A DNA stretch of 14,227 nucleotides, from contig PKXB01000138.1 in assembly GCA_003133345.1 (NCBI GenBank), positions 1-14,227 on the forward strand, given 5' to 3'. Origin of the DNA: Hyphomicrobiales bacterium (lineage in GTDB: Bacteria > Pseudomonadota > Alphaproteobacteria > Rhizobiales > Xanthobacteraceae). Shown one piece after another: positions 1-5,429 of the stretch; positions within the stretch are counted from its first letter, which is position 1; each line of letters opens with the position of its first letter. A program made the translations under genes and the position numbers. Under the pieces are notes generated by a model. The model made no database searches. It was not told where the DNA came from and saw only the letters and a list, made by a program, of their open reading frames with translations.

Positions 1-7
1 AGGCTGG

Positions 8-22
8 TGGAGGCCACGGCCG
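8..22 (+). repeat. Distal att site (copy of tRNA-Cys 3' end)
   Basis: This is an exact 15-bp copy of the tRNA-Cys 3' end: four bases of the T-stem, the seven-base acceptor strand, the discriminator U and CCA, read on the minus strand. The match stops cleanly on both sides. It would be the displaced original end of the tRNA gene, marking the left boundary of the element. Confidence 0.75.
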
Positions 23-93
23 TTATGCCCTTTTTGGGCAGCGCCAGCACTTAGCTTGTCCAACCGCCCTTAAAGCACCTTCCGGGCGCAAAA

Positions 94-112
94 GACAATT
101 CCCAGAATTGTC
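94..112. promoter_or_regulatory. Perfect 19-bp palindrome, candidate operator
   Basis: GACAATTC-CCA-GAATTGTC has perfect 8-bp arms around a 3-bp spacer, about 100 bp upstream of the DUF3102 gene. Its right arm overlaps the second copy of a 10-bp direct repeat, TTGTCCAACC, at 56-65 and 108-117. The geometry suits a dimeric repressor, or accessory binding sites for a recombinase near the att end. No convincing -35/-10 pair is visible beside it. Confidence 0.4.
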
Positions 113-207
113 CAACCTTCCGCAGGCGATCTCGGTCGCCACCCCCACCACCTCAAACAGAAACCCCGCAGCCGGCGTGACCCAGCTACGGGGCATTGGA
201 GAATGCT

Positions 208-1110
208 GTGCAAAAGCAGAATACGCATACACCCATCGCCGCTGACACACAAACGGCACCAGGCCAAGACCTTGATCGATCCAATTCCCTCGCCGATCTC
301 GCCGCGCGGATCAGGGCCTTTCACGAAGCGGCAGCCGAAGGACTCAGGCGCAGCGTCGAAAACGCGATGGCCGCCGGCGACCTCCTGATCGAGGCCAAGG
401 CACAGCTCAAGCACGGCCAGTGGCTGCCGTGGCTCCGCGACCACTGCGCAATGTCCGAGCGCACCGCGCAGCTTTACATGCGCTGCGCGAAGAACCGGGC
501 CGCCATCGAAGAGCAAGCCAAATCCGCAACGGTTGCGGATTTGACCCTGAACGAGGCCGCCGCCGTTCTGATGCTCAGTTCGGATGTCCGCAAGCTATTG
601 GAAATGACCAAGACGATGGAGAGGTTGCACGGCGAGGATTTGATCAAGTTCTGCGCCGACAACGACATAGCAACGATCTCGGGCAACATTTTCAACGCAC
701 CAGAACCGACTGATCAGGAATGCGTGGAATGGCAGTTGTTTGTTCTCTTTCTGGCGCGTGAGTTTGGTTACAGCGTAGAAGGCGCTACCTGCCATGTTGA
801 TTGGGTACAGAGCCGGGGCACGCTCCTTCCGGACTGGATGAAGCCCAATCCAATACGCGACGCATGGATGCCCATTCTCCAAGCAACCTTCGACGCTTGG
901 AATGCCTTCCTTGTAGCCAACCGAGGCAGATCGCTCGACGATGTGACAGCCGAGATTAATCGGCTGAATGAGGCGCAGATCGAGCAGCTCACGACACGTA
1001 CCAAGCCTGCCCCGCGTCGGACGGTGAACAACCGCGGGCAGCGCCATCCCACAACAAACGCACACACGAACGAAGGAACACATGGGTTTCGGAAAATTCA
1101 ACGTCATTGA
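208..1110 (+). CDS. DUF3102 domain protein (phage/island type)
   Basis: A protein of 300 residues. Residues about 28-123 match DUF3102 as seen in alphaproteobacterial phages and islands: a helical stretch with the pattern AGDLLIEAK, then HGQWLPWL and MSERTAQLYM, the last of which looks like a recognition helix. The rest has no recognised domain and ends in a polar, basic tail. The GTG at 208 is chosen because GGAG at 198-201 lies 6 nt upstream; an in-frame TTG at 196 would add four residues but lacks a clear ribosome site. The 3' end overlaps the next gene by 29 nt, so the two are probably translated together. DUF3102 has no assigned biochemical role; DNA binding is an inference from the helical pattern and phage context. 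Confidence 0.8.
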   Translation: MQKQNTHTPIAADTQTAPGQDLDRSNSLADLAARIRAFHEAAAEGLRRSVENAMAAGDLLIEAKAQLKHGQWLPWLRDHCAMSERTAQLYMRCAKNRAAIEEQAKSATVADLTLNEAAAVLMLSSDVRKLLEMTKTMERLHGEDLIKFCADNDIATISGNIFNAPEPTDQECVEWQLFVLFLAREFGYSVEGATCHVDWVQSRGTLLPDWMKPNPIRDAWMPILQATFDAWNAFLVANRGRSLDDVTAEINRLNEAQIEQLTTRTKPAPRRTVNNRGQRHPTTNAHTNEGTHGFRKIQRH

Positions 1111-1639
1111 AAACGGCGAGGTGATCGCGCGCCGGATTACGAAAGCAGAGGCGACGGCGATGGTCGAAAGCGCACCGGCCCCGGCCACACAATCGCCGCC
1201 GATCCTGTCCGCGCCGAACGTGGGGTGGCGTTTGATTTCGCGCCGCCGTTTTTCTGCCGGGGGCAATGTCTATGATAGGGGCGCGGCGGTTCCCGTCGAA
1301 GCGCTCGGAAAGAACTACCAGCAACTCCTCGACAATGGCGTGATCGGTTGGACGCCACCGAGCAAGGTCAACGCCGCCGTGGTGGTGCGCGCCGCGCCAG
1401 CGCCACCACCGCCGCGAACGGGAAGTCTGATCGTCGTATTCGTCGACGATCCGAATCCGATTATCGCCTTCAAAAAAACAGTCGCCGCGACAGCCGAGCG
1501 CAATTCCCTCGATCACGAACTCGCGCGCAACTTGATTTTCGGAACCGATAAAGGCTCGCGTCTTTTTCAATTAGCCACCCGCGTTGCGAGCGAGCGCGAA
1601 AACAAAATGCACGGAAGGCGCGTCGCCGTCGCGCTTTGA
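1082..1639 (+). CDS. Hypothetical protein in the phage-like cluster
   Basis: A protein of 185 residues that I do not recognise. It starts at an ATG with GAAGGA 4 nt upstream, inside the end of the DUF3102 gene (29-nt overlap, different frame), which suggests coupled translation. The N-terminal half has short beta-like segments (MGFGKFNVIENGEVIARR, then VGWRLISRRRFSAGG). The middle has proline/alanine-rich linkers near residues 50-60 and 100-115. The C-terminus is charged and helical. There is no signal peptide or membrane segment. It is followed after 25 nt by the next gene. Confidence 0.65.
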   Translation: MGFGKFNVIENGEVIARRITKAEATAMVESAPAPATQSPPILSAPNVGWRLISRRRFSAGGNVYDRGAAVPVEALGKNYQQLLDNGVIGWTPPSKVNAAVVVRAAPAPPPPRTGSLIVVFVDDPNPIIAFKKTVAATAERNSLDHELARNLIFGTDKGSRLFQLATRVASERENKMHGRRVAVAL

Positions 1640-1664
1640 ACTGAAATGCAACCGGAGAACTGAC

Positions 1665-2345
1665 ATGGGCAGCCCAAGACTTCTAAAAGAACTTTCCATA
1701 AATGATGTGTCATCCGTCGACGTCGGAGCTGGGCGCGGGGTGAGGGTAATGCTGATGAAGTCTACCAACCACGAAGGAAAAAACATGGCCAATCTCACAA
1801 TCGAAAATATCCGCAAGGGCGCAGCGGACGGCGTAATTTCACGGGCCACCGTCGGCGCATTACTGGAAGCCGCAGTAGCCGAGCGCGGCGTCAGCCTATT
1901 GAAACTGCATGAACAGCGAGATCCATTCGTGTGCGGCCTGTTAATTCTCGATGACGAAATGGGCCGACTGACCGGCTTCTCCGAACCCGATCACTACGTT
2001 GCCAAGGCTGGCATCGACATAAATGGGGCAGGCGGCCTGCCTCCAACCAACCGCGCGCCGCCCACCAACAGCCGGGCCGGTACGTCATACGAGGTCGACG
2101 ACGAAGATCACGCGGCGGCGCTGGGAAAATTGGTCGACGCACACCAAGAAGCGAACAAAAACGCGATCCCGAAAATGTCGCGGTCCAAAAGTTATCATGC
2201 GATCATGCGAACAGCGCGCGGCGCAGCGACGGCAACGAAGGCGATTGGACAAGGCCAGAGCGGTTACAGAACGCGCCAGCAACGCACTCACGGAATCGGC
2301 GTCGGAAGCAATCTCCAGCCGGATTTGAGCAGACGGACACGGTGA
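1665..2345 (+). CDS. Phage morphogenesis-like protein, possibly frameshifted
   Basis: A protein of 226 residues. The first 32 (LLKELSINDVSSVDVGAGRG, then VRVMLMK) resemble the N-terminal signature of phage head/prohead-associated proteins (XkdF-like: INEISxVDxGA...VxLMK). The following MANLTIENIRKGAADG resembles the second block of such proteins. The ATG at 1665 has GGAGA 6 nt upstream; an in-frame ATG at 1785 has its own AAGGA, also 6 nt upstream, so two products are possible. After about position 2244 the +1 frame looks more coding-like and ends at 2328, which suggests a 1-nt frameshift near the 3' end. The XkdF-like assignment is a motif-level judgement. Confidence 0.6.
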   Translation: MGSPRLLKELSINDVSSVDVGAGRGVRVMLMKSTNHEGKNMANLTIENIRKGAADGVISRATVGALLEAAVAERGVSLLKLHEQRDPFVCGLLILDDEMGRLTGFSEPDHYVAKAGIDINGAGGLPPTNRAPPTNSRAGTSYEVDDEDHAAALGKLVDAHQEANKNAIPKMSRSKSYHAIMRTARGAATATKAIGQGQSGYRTRQQRTHGIGVGSNLQPDLSRRTR

Positions 2346-2348
2346 GCA

Positions 2349-2435
2349 GTGCGCTTCGCCCCCGCGCTCACGCCGAACCTCGCCCTGGCGGTGCTGCTGA
2401 TCGGCACCGCCATCATCATGCTGGCGAATGGGTGA
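2349..2435 (+). CDS. Small single-pass membrane peptide
   Basis: A 28-residue ORF with a GTG start 3 nt after the stop of the preceding gene and in the same frame. Residues about 9-26 (NLALAVLLIGTAIIMLAN) form one uninterrupted hydrophobic segment after a short N-terminus holding one arginine. The stop is 3 nt before the ATG of the HTH gene, so it sits tightly within the cluster. The ribosome site is weak (GGTGA close to the GTG), so it may depend on reinitiation. Phages often encode such peptides, some as holins, but there is no specific evidence for that here. Confidence 0.45.
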   Translation: MRFAPALTPNLALAVLLIGTAIIMLANG

Positions 2436-2438
2436 CAC

Positions 2439-2888
2439 ATGACGACGCCCTGGGTGTACACGCCGGATCGCATCGACAAGATCAAAGCGATGCTGGGCCG
2501 CGTGGCTGTCCCGGAAATTGCCGAAGCGGTTGGCGTCTCCGTTCCGTCTCTGAAGACTTGGCTGAGGGACAAACGGTTGACGGCGGCGCGAGCTGTCAGC
2601 GACACGATCTGCGCAGAGTATAATCGGCTGCGCCAGCGTGCCTTCCGATGCGGCTTGCGACTGAGCAGCCAGAACGGTTGCATTTCGCTTTGGGTTTCGG
2701 TGAAGGAAAATTTGTCATACGCGGAAGCTGATCTCTATCTGCGATTTACGAACCAGAGACAGCGGCTGATCGACATGGAGGCGGAGTTTTCGAAATTTGC
2801 CGGTTCCATAAAACCAACCGGCAATGCGGTTGGCGTCTCCGATTGGGTAGGTGAACTCCATCGCCCAGCGGAGACGCCGCCGCTCTAA
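2439..2888 (+). CDS. Helix-turn-helix protein of the phage-like cluster
   Basis: A protein of 149 residues. Residues about 22-46 (VAVPEIAEAVGVSVPSLKTW, then LRDKR) form a clear helix-turn-helix with the usual A-x-x-x-G-V-S turn and a basic recognition-helix end. The rest is helical and basic, with two nearby cysteines, and has no recognised domain. It begins 3 nt after the small membrane peptide. It could be a regulator of the element or a small-terminase-like DNA-binding protein; the sequence does not decide. The bases encoding AVGVS occur twice, exactly 300 bp apart and in frame. Confidence 0.65.
   Translation: MTTPWVYTPDRIDKIKAMLGRVAVPEIAEAVGVSVPSLKTWLRDKRLTAARAVSDTICAEYNRLRQRAFRCGLRLSSQNGCISLWVSVKENLSYAEADLYLRFTNQRQRLIDMEAEFSKFAGSIKPTGNAVGVSDWVGELHRPAETPPL
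2526..2841 (+). repeat. Two 16-bp direct repeats 300 bp apart
   Basis: GCGGTTGGCGTCTCCG is present at 2526-2541 and 2826-2841. Both copies lie inside the HTH gene in the same codon phase and encode AVGVS. The bases between them are unrelated. Confidence 0.7.
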
Positions 2889-2910
2889 TTTGCGATTGCG
2901 ATCATCGAAC

Positions 2911-2940
2911 GCAAAAGGAAAGACCGCCTCGCGGCGGTCT
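2911..2940 (-). terminator. Rho-independent terminator of the PEP-CTERM gene
   Basis: AGACCGCC-TCGC-GGCGGTCT (2921-2940) is a perfect 8-bp stem with a 4-nt loop. Read on the minus strand it is followed by TTCCTTTT, giving the usual U-rich tail. It lies 27 bp past the stop codon of the leftward gene at 2967. On the plus strand there is no T-tract, so termination of the HTH transcript is less likely. Confidence 0.75.
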
Positions 2941-2966
2941 CTCCGAAATCCAATCAGGTGTTTTGA

Positions 2967-3533
2967 TCAGGCTGTGATGGCGGCGTTCTTCCGCTTCCTG
3001 CGCGAGCCGAGCAGACCCAACGCGCCGAGGCCGCTGGCGAAGAGCGGGAGAGCGGCGGGAAGCGGAGTGGAGCCCAAATCAGTTGATACCGCTAATATCG
3101 TTCCGCCCTCCCCTTGGGGGAGTCCATTATTACAACCATTTGCATTTGAGCACGGATAGTTCTGAACAAACCAAGTTGTAATATTACCACCAGTAAACCC
3201 GGTCAAAGAATCGAGAACAACACGAGTGAAAGTGAATAGGATGCTCGTCTGATGATTAAGGCTCGAATTAGCTACGTCTAATTCCCAACCATTTAAATTT
3301 AGCACTGTATTATCTAAAGTTGAATAAGGGGATGAATTTACGATTATATCGAATGTCCCAAAGCCGCTAACATTGAGGAGAGCTGACGTAAACGCTGGCG
3401 GGAGCAAAGTCCCGTCAAAATTTATACTCCCGGATAACGCGGTGCCTGAACTAACGTCGAATGTTTGAGCGTTCGCGTATCCAGCTGTCAGTGCTACCAT
3501 TATTGTTGCAGCCAGACATCTTAAACGCAGCAT
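2967..3533 (-). CDS. Secreted VPLPA/PEP-CTERM sorted protein
   Basis: A protein of 188 residues with a signal peptide at the N-terminus (MLRLRCLAATIMVALTAGYA, cleavage probably after ANA near residue 22) and a C-terminal tripartite sorting signal. That signal is TPLPA at residues 156-160, a hydrophobic helix to about 176, and the basic RRKRK at 178-182. This matches the VPLPA variant of PEP-CTERM, which is recognised by an exosortase in the inner membrane during export to the surface. The middle is rich in Asn, Ser and Thr and probably beta-stranded, with two cysteines. The ATG at 3533 is chosen because GGAGG lies 5 nt upstream; an ATG 10 codons earlier lacks this. No exosortase gene is in the window, so processing would need one elsewhere. 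Base composition is very AT-rich: 33% GC in 3301-3360. Confidence 0.85.
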   Translation of the reverse strand: MLRLRCLAATIMVALTAGYANAQTFDVSSGTALSGSINFDGTLLPPAFTSALLNVSGFGTFDIIVNSSPYSTLDNTVLNLNGWELDVANSSLNHQTSILFTFTRVVLDSLTGFTGGNITTWFVQNYPCSNANGCNNGLPQGEGGTILAVSTDLGSTPLPAALPLFASGLGALGLLGSRRKRKNAAITA

Positions 3534-3758
3534 CTTAGCCTCCGTTACCCACGGCCTCACCAATTACCCATTATGGTCATTATCGAAGGCACCAATTGTG
3601 GCCGTCCTGAAGCTTCCACAGTTTTTTTGCATCTGTGACGATGTGCCGATTTAGCGACACTCTCGGAATGAACTCTGGAACGGCGTGGTACGACAGCAGA
3701 GCGGCAGCGCTTCAGCTTTCATCGGCGCTGCATAGGGCCTACCGGCAGCATTGACCGG

Positions 3759-4424
3759 TCACATCATCATCTTCAAGAGCCAATCCAAGGCGGCACCGGC
3801 AAGTTTGCTAATAAATTCCGACCCCGCTTTCTCCATGAGGTATTTGAGCGGCTTCACTAACAACAATTCGATCAAACCGCGTGGGGGTTTTGGCGCGTTT
3901 AGGATTTCCCGGCCTGCCTTCATATCGGCAAGTAACTGATCTCGAACCTCGCCCGAGATCTCATTCGACCGACGGAGTTCATCAAGCAGCTTCTCCATGT
4001 TCGCGTTGAACTGTTTGAATGGCTCGCTCTGAATATTTATCGTTATGGAGTTCTGAACGATCATCGCTGCTTGCGGGTTTGCGGGATAAGCAGATGGCGT
4101 GATCAATATTGATGCGGGGACAGTGGCGGCTTGTGTTCTCTCTACTGCCGTAATCATGGTGTCGATCGACTCCACGAGTCCGTCTCGATGAGCAGCCAAA
4201 ACGTTTACATCGGTCGTATTTTCGTCACCAATCCATCGCTGTGACATTGGATTCCAAATCGACGCGGGCGAACCTAATACTTGACCGGCGGCTAGAATGG
4301 CGCTCCTGCTTTTGGTGCGCCATGCCGCTAAAATTGCAAAAGTTAAATCCTGCTTTTGGATTGCAAGCAGTTCACTGCGTGCATCGCGGAGACCCTTAAT
4401 TGCGCTTTCCTGTAAAACGGACAT
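3759..4424 (-). CDS. Unknown protein beside the tRNA, hydrophobic C-terminus
   Basis: A protein of 221 residues that I do not recognise. Its start is 122 bp downstream of the tRNA-Cys 3' end and it reads away from the tRNA. The ATG at 4424 is the first possible start, since a stop codon lies immediately upstream; no good ribosome site is seen. Residues about 1-50 are helical. Residues about 100-135 look beta-rich (SITINIQSEPF). Residues about 135-175 are a charged helix with ELRRSNEISGEVRDQLLADM. The last 44 residues after PKPPR are hydrophobic/amphipathic helices (GLIELLLVKPLKYLMEKAGS and on), suggesting membrane contact. There is no signal peptide. Its place at the tRNA end of an island is where cargo such as defence genes is often found, but no defence family is recognised. 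Confidence 0.65.
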   Translation of the reverse strand: MSVLQESAIKGLRDARSELLAIQKQDLTFAILAAWRTKSRSAILAAGQVLGSPASIWNPMSQRWIGDENTTDVNVLAAHRDGLVESIDTMITAVERTQAATVPASILITPSAYPANPQAAMIVQNSITINIQSEPFKQFNANMEKLLDELRRSNEISGEVRDQLLADMKAGREILNAPKPPRGLIELLLVKPLKYLMEKAGSEFISKLAGAALDWLLKMMM

Positions 4425-4546
4425 TTACATTTTACATCCGATTGACCCATGCGGGCATGGCTAGGTCGGCGCGGGGACTTCTGCTGACTTATCACTGACG
4501 TAAAAGAGGGGCTGTTTTTCTGGTTGAGCTAAGTTCCTGATTTTGT

Positions 4547-4561
4547 TGGAGGCCACGGCCG
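4547..4561 (+). repeat. tRNA-side att site
   Basis: The 15 bp identical to 8-22. It is the 3' end of tRNA-Cys and the right boundary of the putative element. Because it is part of the functional tRNA, it is restored by the incoming element. Confidence 0.75.
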
Positions 4562-4620
4562 GAATCGAACCGGCGTGCACGGATTTGCAGTCCGCTGCGT
4601 AACCACTCCGCCACGTGGCC
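4547..4620 (-). tRNA. tRNA-Cys (GCA)
   Basis: A 74-nt tRNA with CCA encoded. The acceptor stem GGCCACG pairs with CGTGGCC, and the discriminator is U, as expected for tRNA-Cys. The anticodon stem GCGGA/TCCGT holds the loop CTGCAAA with anticodon GCA at 4588-4586. The T-loop region GGTTCGATTCC is canonical. It is the integration target of the element to its left and should be functional. Confidence 0.97.
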
Positions 4621-4703: not shown

Positions 4704-4781
4704 CGCCGCCGGCTCGCTTGCCTTTTGCCAAGGCTTGCCGCACAAAAGCCGCGTATTCTTCTGCTTTTGCCGAGGATAATG

Positions 4782-5429
4782 ATGACTGATTTCGCAGCCG
4801 CGCGCCGCCACATGGTGGACGGCCAGGTCCGTACTACCGACGTCACCGATCTGCGCGTGATTTCGGCCCTGCTGGAGGTTCCGCGTGAGCGGTTCATGCC
4901 GCCGGCTTCGGCCTCGCTCGCCTATCTTGATCTTGACGTGCCGGTGGGTGCATCCCGCCGACTGCTCAAGCCGATGGTGCTCGCCAAGTTGATCCAGGCC
5001 GCCGAACTTGTGGCCACCGACCGCGTGCTCGATGCCGGCTGCGCCACCGGCTACACCGCCGCCGTGCTCGCCCGCATCGTGGGCCAGGTGGTGGCGCTCG
5101 AACAGGACGCCGGCCTCGTCAAGGCGGCGCGTGAGGCGTTGTCGTCGCAGCCAAATGTCGACGTGGTTAACGGAGCGCTCGCCGAGGGCTGGCCGCAAGG
5201 CGCGCCTTACGACGTGGTGGTGCTTGAGGGGGCCACCGAGGCTGTGCCGCACGCGCTCTGCCAGCAGCTCAAGGACGGCGGCCGTTTGGTCTGCGTGCTG
5301 GGCTCAGGTCCCGGCTCCAAGGCCATGCTGTATCGCCGCAGCGGCGGGGAGGTGGGCGGCCGGCCGGTCTTCGACGCCTCGGCGGCGCTGCTCCCGGGCT
5401 TCGCAAAAACGCCGGTTTTCGCGTTCTGA
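4782..5429 (+). CDS. Protein-L-isoaspartate O-methyltransferase family protein
   Basis: A protein of 215 residues with an SAM-dependent methyltransferase fold. Motif I is VLDAGCATGY at about residue 83, followed by VVALEQD as the acidic strand-2 motif and APYDVVVLEG as strand 4. The N-terminal pattern DGQVRTTDVTDLRVI with VPRERFMP is typical of the alphaproteobacterial Pcm-like group next to tolC. The classical family repairs isoaspartyl residues in the cytoplasm using SAM. Two Pcm signatures are altered here: the TISQP region reads RRLLKP and the VTAAPP strand reads VLEGATE, so repair activity is uncertain. The ATG at 4782 is used because GAGG lies 6 nt upstream; ATG at 4779 is also possible. 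Confidence 0.85.
   Translation: MTDFAAARRHMVDGQVRTTDVTDLRVISALLEVPRERFMPPASASLAYLDLDVPVGASRRLLKPMVLAKLIQAAELVATDRVLDAGCATGYTAAVLARIVGQVVALEQDAGLVKAAREALSSQPNVDVVNGALAEGWPQGAPYDVVVLEGATEAVPHALCQQLKDGGRLVCVLGSGPGSKAMLYRRSGGEVGGRPVFDASAALLPGFAKTPVFAF

Follow-up and report, generated by a model that had tools for sequence, protein, structure and literature searches.

How a 4.5-kb segment with no recognised integrase came to lie between two copies of the end of a tRNA gene is the question raised by the locus described here. The segment occupies positions 8-4561 of a 14,227-nucleotide stretch (the window) from a Hyphomicrobiales bacterium of the family Xanthobacteraceae. The window comprises the first 14,227 bases of a 42,612-base contig (C197) and ends at an NN gap; the draft genome holds 3.43 Mb in 238 contigs and is 83% complete. 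The explanation we favor, and consider fairly probable, is that the segment is the remnant of a tRNA-Cys site-specific island related to a 9.7-kb element found in another genome of the genus (G012), from which the integrase-side end has been lost.

The sequence TGGAGGCCACGGCCG is present as an exact direct repeat at 8-22 and 4547-4561, both on the plus strand, and 15 bp is the longest run common to the two places. ARAGORN places an intact tRNA-Cys (gca) on the minus strand at 4547-4620, and together with the repeat search this puts the proximal attachment (att) copy, 4547-4561, within the tRNA gene. This copy is the last 15 nucleotides of the tRNA, as an earlier note on this DNA had claimed; read from the sequence, these are CCA, U73, seven nucleotides of the acceptor stem and four of the T stem. 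The distal att copy, at 8-22, corresponds by repeat comparison to the displaced 3′ end of tRNA-Cys, 15 bp here and 44 bp in G012. Across the draft genome the exact 15-mer was found three times, in the two window copies and at the start of a short contig (C194:1-15, other strand); the last of these is physically one and the same stretch as window 8-22. With one mismatch allowed, three further places were found (L004-L006), and no tRNA was present in any of their 3-kb stretches. A 15-mer common away from tRNA-Cys would have spoken against the claim of the earlier note, and the exact 15-mer occurs solely at this locus. The arrangement is that of a tRNA-borne genomic island: an intact tRNA gene with a 3′ fragment downstream in the same orientation. 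The G+C content per 500-base window is 0.48-0.63 inside the element and 0.52-0.73 to its right, lower overall but with overlapping ranges.

The same site was examined in relatives by following the conserved chromosomal neighbor at 4779-5429 (plus strand), identified by protein search in relatives and presumably encoding a Pcm-like methyltransferase. The search covered 80 genomes, including the window's own, and gave matches in 78. The genus is represented by 43 genomes including the own one; when three of the 42 relatives are set aside, in which the neighbor has no match or merely a weak paralogue (G036, G038 and G041), 39 loci are left. Only 56-241 bp lie between the two tRNA genes, tRNA-Cys and tRNA-Asn, at 37 of them, i.e., the site is empty (G035, whose tRNA-Asn is cut by the contig start, is scored among them). 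The remaining two are G012, where the site is occupied by another element (gap of 9,801 bp), and G021, whose contig stops before the tRNA. In the closest relative by the Pcm-like protein (G018, 86%), the gap is 135 bp and aligns with the left flank of the window's element on C194, best near tRNA-Asn, and the tRNA-Cys is by eye identical to that of the window. Among three genomes from other genera of the family, two are empty and one (G046) has no tRNA-Asn within the 2.1 kb fetched; there (L066:1-2145), genes that look by eye like a methyltransferase and a regulator follow tRNA-Cys in place of tRNA-Asn. The empty sites, together with an integrase-bearing relative at the same site, support the earlier proposal of an accessory insert bounded by tRNA-Cys ends.

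Because the window begins at a contig end, it cannot be judged from the window alone whether the segment is the proximal unit of a tandem island, with an integrase and a third att copy further left. The left neighbor was recovered. The start of C194 (3,799 bases) is the reverse complement of window 1-22 and thus overlaps the start of C197 head to head by 22 bp; through this overlap, window 1-7 (no strand assigned) is chromosomal flank between tRNA-Cys and tRNA-Asn that continues into C194. On C194, tRNA-Asn lies at 165-239 and is followed by a reading frame that we take to be nicotinate phosphoribosyltransferase, pncB. Since C194 both overlaps window 1-22 and bears tRNA-Asn, the left flank is ordinary chromosome rather than another island, arranged as in relatives, and the 15-mer found there is the copy already counted at 8-22. 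The tandem arrangement, one of three options in the earlier note, is therefore rejected, barring a misjoin between C194 and C197, as having next to no probability, whereas the option of a decayed element became the best supported.

The way in which these contigs end deserves attention of its own. The break coincides with the very first base of the repeat and comes with the 22-bp overlap, which suggests population variants at the site. Comparison of 63 contig ends revealed an overlap of exactly 22 bases in one other pair (C196 start and C157 end), and 22 bases look like the overlap length of the assembler; the final 22 bases of C194 are not repeated anywhere else in the genome. Given the start of C194 exactly at the repeat and the same overlap length in another pair, a fork in the assembly graph is probable at this point. 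Its second branch might stem from other cells in which the site is empty or, alternatively, from a longer element that has the complete tRNA half; these two are indistinguishable because both place the same base before the repeat. No break is present at the tRNA side, which speaks against a simple mixture of occupied and unoccupied sites. That the whole locus is an artefact of assembly or of chance would fit the fragmented draft and the contig end at the repeat, but the repeat is unique to this place in the genome, the contig is continuous across the tRNA-side junction and G012 offers an independent occupied site, so that we regard this as very improbable. Elsewhere in the assembly, the starts of contigs C7 and C13 share 100 self-complementary bases, probably an assembly artefact.

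The occupied relative shows what an element with an integrase looks like at this site. The 9.7-kb element on G012 contig C17 (L054) lies at the same tRNA-Cys site in the same orientation, between repeat copies at 575 and 10287 that are 44 bp long and extend into the anticodon loop. Its genes run in the order integrase, 133-amino-acid (aa) protein, D5-type primase/helicase (D5_N), 104-aa protein, terminase large subunit (TerL), homologues of two window genes (W2 and W3) and four minus-strand open reading frames (ORFs). The integrase is of the tyrosine type (PF00589, 1.9e-21; Arm-DNA-bind_3, 2.7e-18) and adjoins the tRNA-Asn-side end, away from tRNA-Cys. TerL was recognised through PHROG (phrog_2, 6e-22) and has no match in Pfam. 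Among the ten G012 element proteins scanned, none matched a capsid family. The two window genes with homologues are adjacent and in the same order in both elements. W2 (1082-1639, plus strand, 185 aa) is a homologue of the gene after TerL, with 41% identity over 132 aa (1.4e-27). W3 (1665-2345, plus strand) shares with the next G012 gene an N-terminal motif in the VSSVD region (40% over 47 aa, 1.3e-6); its start at 1665 was set by this alignment, the listed ORF start being 1584.

W2 is rare. A large protein search, in which the 7996 candidates sharing most words were scored, yielded five W2 proteins, among them the window's own (listed with 11 contigs, the longest of 72,419 bases), one 99%-identical fragment and one that, judged by its length and contig, is the G012 protein. 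None was found in viral contigs, and a W2 profile run over 397 genomes of the order, including the own genome, recovered the own genome and one weak match (2.8e-4), around which BLAST at an expectation value (E) of 0.05 showed no similarity to proteins of the window or of G012. A structure model of W2 was too weak for use (mean predicted local distance difference test score, pLDDT, 70.9; predicted template modelling score, pTM, 0.37).

The element ends provide a second line of resemblance. A putative arm-type motif, CTGACTTATCACTGAC, lies at 4484-4499 (plus strand), 47 bases from the tRNA 3′ end, and the same motif with the same spacing is present in G012. The left end of G012 carries CTGACTAAACACTGACGTGAA and its right end CTGACGAAACACTGACTTGAA, a similarity equalled in none of 5000 dinucleotide shuffles; the right end of the window's element carries GCTGACTTATCACTGACGTAAAA, and against the left end of G012 one of 5000 shuffles was as good. 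In both elements the sequence CTGACNNNNCACTGAC stops 47 bases before the first repeat base (window 4499/4547, G012 10239/10287). Exact copies of CTGACNNNNCACTGAC were found in seven of 121 loci, all of them overlapping copies of the window and G012 places, and CTGACNNNNCACTGAC followed by GT occurs three times in the 43 genus genomes: in the window, at the left end of G012 and at one place in G033. A pattern for the right arm had no match in viral contigs. From its place and repetition, the motif would be an integrase arm site. The left end of the window's element (23-195, plus strand) has no arm-type motif by end comparisons: 2006 of 5000 shuffles were as good against the left end of G012 and 4803 of 5000 against its right end.

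The window's element and that of G012 are thus alike in site, orientation, the ordered W2 and W3 homologues, and the right-end motif with its spacing. Absent from the window's element are the integrase, the primase, the terminase, the second motif copy and the 44-bp core, and the other genes differ. The same site, the same right end and two common genes with the integrase side missing fit a loss of the integrase-side end, and a deletion reaching into the displaced piece of the tRNA would be in keeping with the short repeat. The favored history would run as follows. A tyrosine integrase with an arm-binding domain would have inserted the ancestor into the 3′ part of tRNA-Cys, with the element end restoring the tRNA and the original 3′ end displaced toward tRNA-Asn. 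Later, the integrase-side end, with most of the attachment core, the arm site, the integrase, the primase and the terminase, would have been lost. Left over would be 15 bp from the outer part of the displaced tRNA end, the DUF3102 gene W1, the genes W2 and W3, the cargo genes W4-W6 and, together with its arm, the end on the tRNA side. The loss was probably by deletion; we infer that the missing genes were present in the ancestor and were removed by a deletion, and that excision of the remnant no longer takes place.

Several observations weigh against this history. The right end of the window's element, compared with the right end of G012, gives as its best local alignment another short stretch, which is weak (209 of 5000 shuffles). 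The 3-kb stretch containing the G033 occurrence has no tRNA and no apparent integrase; a backward control pattern likewise gave one match, and the motif by itself is therefore not diagnostic. Comparison with eleven G012 proteins gave no significant match for W1, W4, W5 or W6; the window's element is thus not a plain subset of that of G012. An intact ancestor of the window's element itself was not found. Finally, in the part of the Islander description that deals with site types, 1836 islands have sites in the T-stem region and 2083 in the anticodon (PMC4383910); the T-stem type being usual, a 15-bp repeat need not be a truncated 44-bp site, and a different integrase is possible. The segment could accordingly be the decayed remnant of a different, T-stem-type island that resembles G012 because genes were shared at a common site. 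The 15-bp T-stem repeat, a commonly used kind of site as far as that description goes (PMC4383910), and the four unmatched genes would suit such an origin, but two adjacent homologous genes in the same order and a motif common to both elements at an identical distance argue against it, and we consider it improbable.

The absence of an integrase, as had been claimed earlier, was borne out. No integrase domain was matched in the six element ORFs scanned against Pfam and PHROG. Searches of the element by tblastn gave nothing significant with the G012 integrase and six of the genome's seven PF00589 frames, and with the eleven G012 element proteins only chance matches aside from W2 and W3. The expectation that an integrase should sit next to the tRNA fared less well: none is there, yet in G012-type elements this is the wrong place to look, the G012 integrase lying at the end away from the tRNA.

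The missing gene might instead be supplied in trans. The segment would then be a nonautonomous but still mobile element, both of its ends functional with a T-stem-type 15-bp core, on which an integrase encoded elsewhere in the cell acts. The retained right arm with the spacing seen in G012, the seven PF00589 places in the own genome and the probable fork of the assembly graph at the repeat, whose second path might represent other cells with the site empty, are all compatible with mobility. On the other hand, the left end lacks the arm motif, and no own-genome integrase is close to that of G012, the best reaching 27% in a genome that is 83% complete. A longer element in the same population would explain the fork just as well, and the tRNA side shows no fork. 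Patterns for the circle junction and the flank junction gave no match in viral contigs, a weak test because the collection holds viral contigs solely. Mobility in trans, which the earlier note had offered in the form of a satellite, is thus worth keeping in view, if unlikely, and the remnant described above remains our preferred explanation.

Among known systems, the closest to this remnant are islands and elements reduced to their boundaries. A cis-mobilizable element (CIME) is described, in the account available, as having lost integration and transfer genes while keeping attL and attR (PMC5704250). The window's element is likewise an integrated, att-bounded remnant in which no integration genes are recognised; family scans of the six ORFs matched no relaxase or transfer genes, with no dedicated search made for these. 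It differs from a CIME, as that account presents it, in having one damaged-looking att end, a phage-like-looking ancestor and no tandem partner element (PMC5704250): the tRNA-side end keeps core and motif, whereas the distal end keeps 15 bp and no motif. With the tRNA islands of Islander it shares, by the stated rules of that database, the intact tRNA and a displaced 3′ fragment, correctly ordered and oriented (PMC4383910). Those rules also discard candidates without an integrase (PMC4383910); the window's element encodes none and hence is of a class not listed there. Integrase-less islands, of which it is a further case in an already known class, would accordingly be undercounted by such integrase-based finders, going by the filter described (PMC4383910). 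No description of the window's element or of a G012-type element was found in the literature, in a search that was not exhaustive. The comparison provides a clean, if modest, example of the decay of an element, in which an integrase-less tRNA island becomes explicable once both ends are set against a full-length relative, one end being intact and the other damaged.

Phage satellites offer a further comparison: the G012 element resembles them in its integrase, primase and terminase and in the lack of a capsid family in ten proteins; the window's element differs, with no recognised replication or packaging gene (none significant; W4 against a terminase-small-subunit family, E 0.13). G012 thus points to terminase-bearing islands without recognised capsid genes, which may merit study. 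Relatives of its terminase were found in 10 of 397 genomes of the order (E up to 1e-30) and in 3 of the 43 genus genomes, G012 included (E up to 1e-20). Ten stretches were examined, nine around terminase matches (eight genomes, seven genera) and one around the weak W2 match: a tRNA is present in eight and an ORF similar to the G012 integrase (E below 1e-10) in four, and neither W2 nor W3 was found in any (BLAST, E 0.05). A 53% relative is carried by one 15.2-kb viral contig, and annotated phages hold solely relatives of 25-28% (six records). In the loci with terminase relatives (L086-L093, L095, L119, L198 and L199), the stretch often includes a tRNA and, directly preceding the terminase, a small gene with a motif that by eye is common to them. 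It is conceivable, if decidedly speculative, that the elements of G012 and the window represent an undescribed family of capsid-less Hyphomicrobiales islands (integrase, primase, small protein, TerL), with the 4.5-kb form a miniature that parasitises the integrase of its full-size kin through the remaining attachment end. If true, there would be two layers of dependence, the island on a phage and the miniature on the island.

The remaining genes of the element are of varied character. W1 (196-1110, plus strand, 304 aa) is a DUF3102 protein, a phage-type gene of unknown function (PF11300, 4.5e-11; phrog_15609, 1.2e-13). Two relatives occur in viral contigs, one (51% over 71 aa) in a contig of 86 kb and one (31%) in a contig of 8 kb, and within the genus it is present in two of 43 genomes, the own one and G002 (a 34% match). 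Annotated phages gave no match to W1 (E 1e-5) or W2 (E 0.1). W4 (2439-2888, plus strand, 149 aa) shows a weak helix-turn-helix, all Pfam matches of this kind being below cut-off, and the sole protein that it matches in the database (P0017) is the same sequence beginning at a later start. For this protein, identical to most of W4, as for a 35% W2 homologue (P0005), the longest contig listed has 3,288 bases. The two may sit together on a single contig, which could then be a mosaic relative, or the agreement may be coincidence. W6 (3759-4424, minus strand, 221 aa) has relatives in the database, 11 in all with coverage of 44-68%, and these carry neither Pfam domains nor informative names. W5 (2967-3563, minus strand), regarded as cargo, has a PEP-CTERM-like tail (PF07589, 0.0027; 18.1 bits against a cut-off of 20.7) and is followed by a strong, terminator-like hairpin at 2917-2944 on the minus strand (z -5.11 for window 2885-2950). 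The region 2900-3068, comprising this hairpin and in some copies also the coding tail, recurs at five other places in the genome with 83-92% DNA identity, and two of the contigs with hairpin copies (C236 and C25) have a match to a tyrosine recombinase no more than about 3 kb away.

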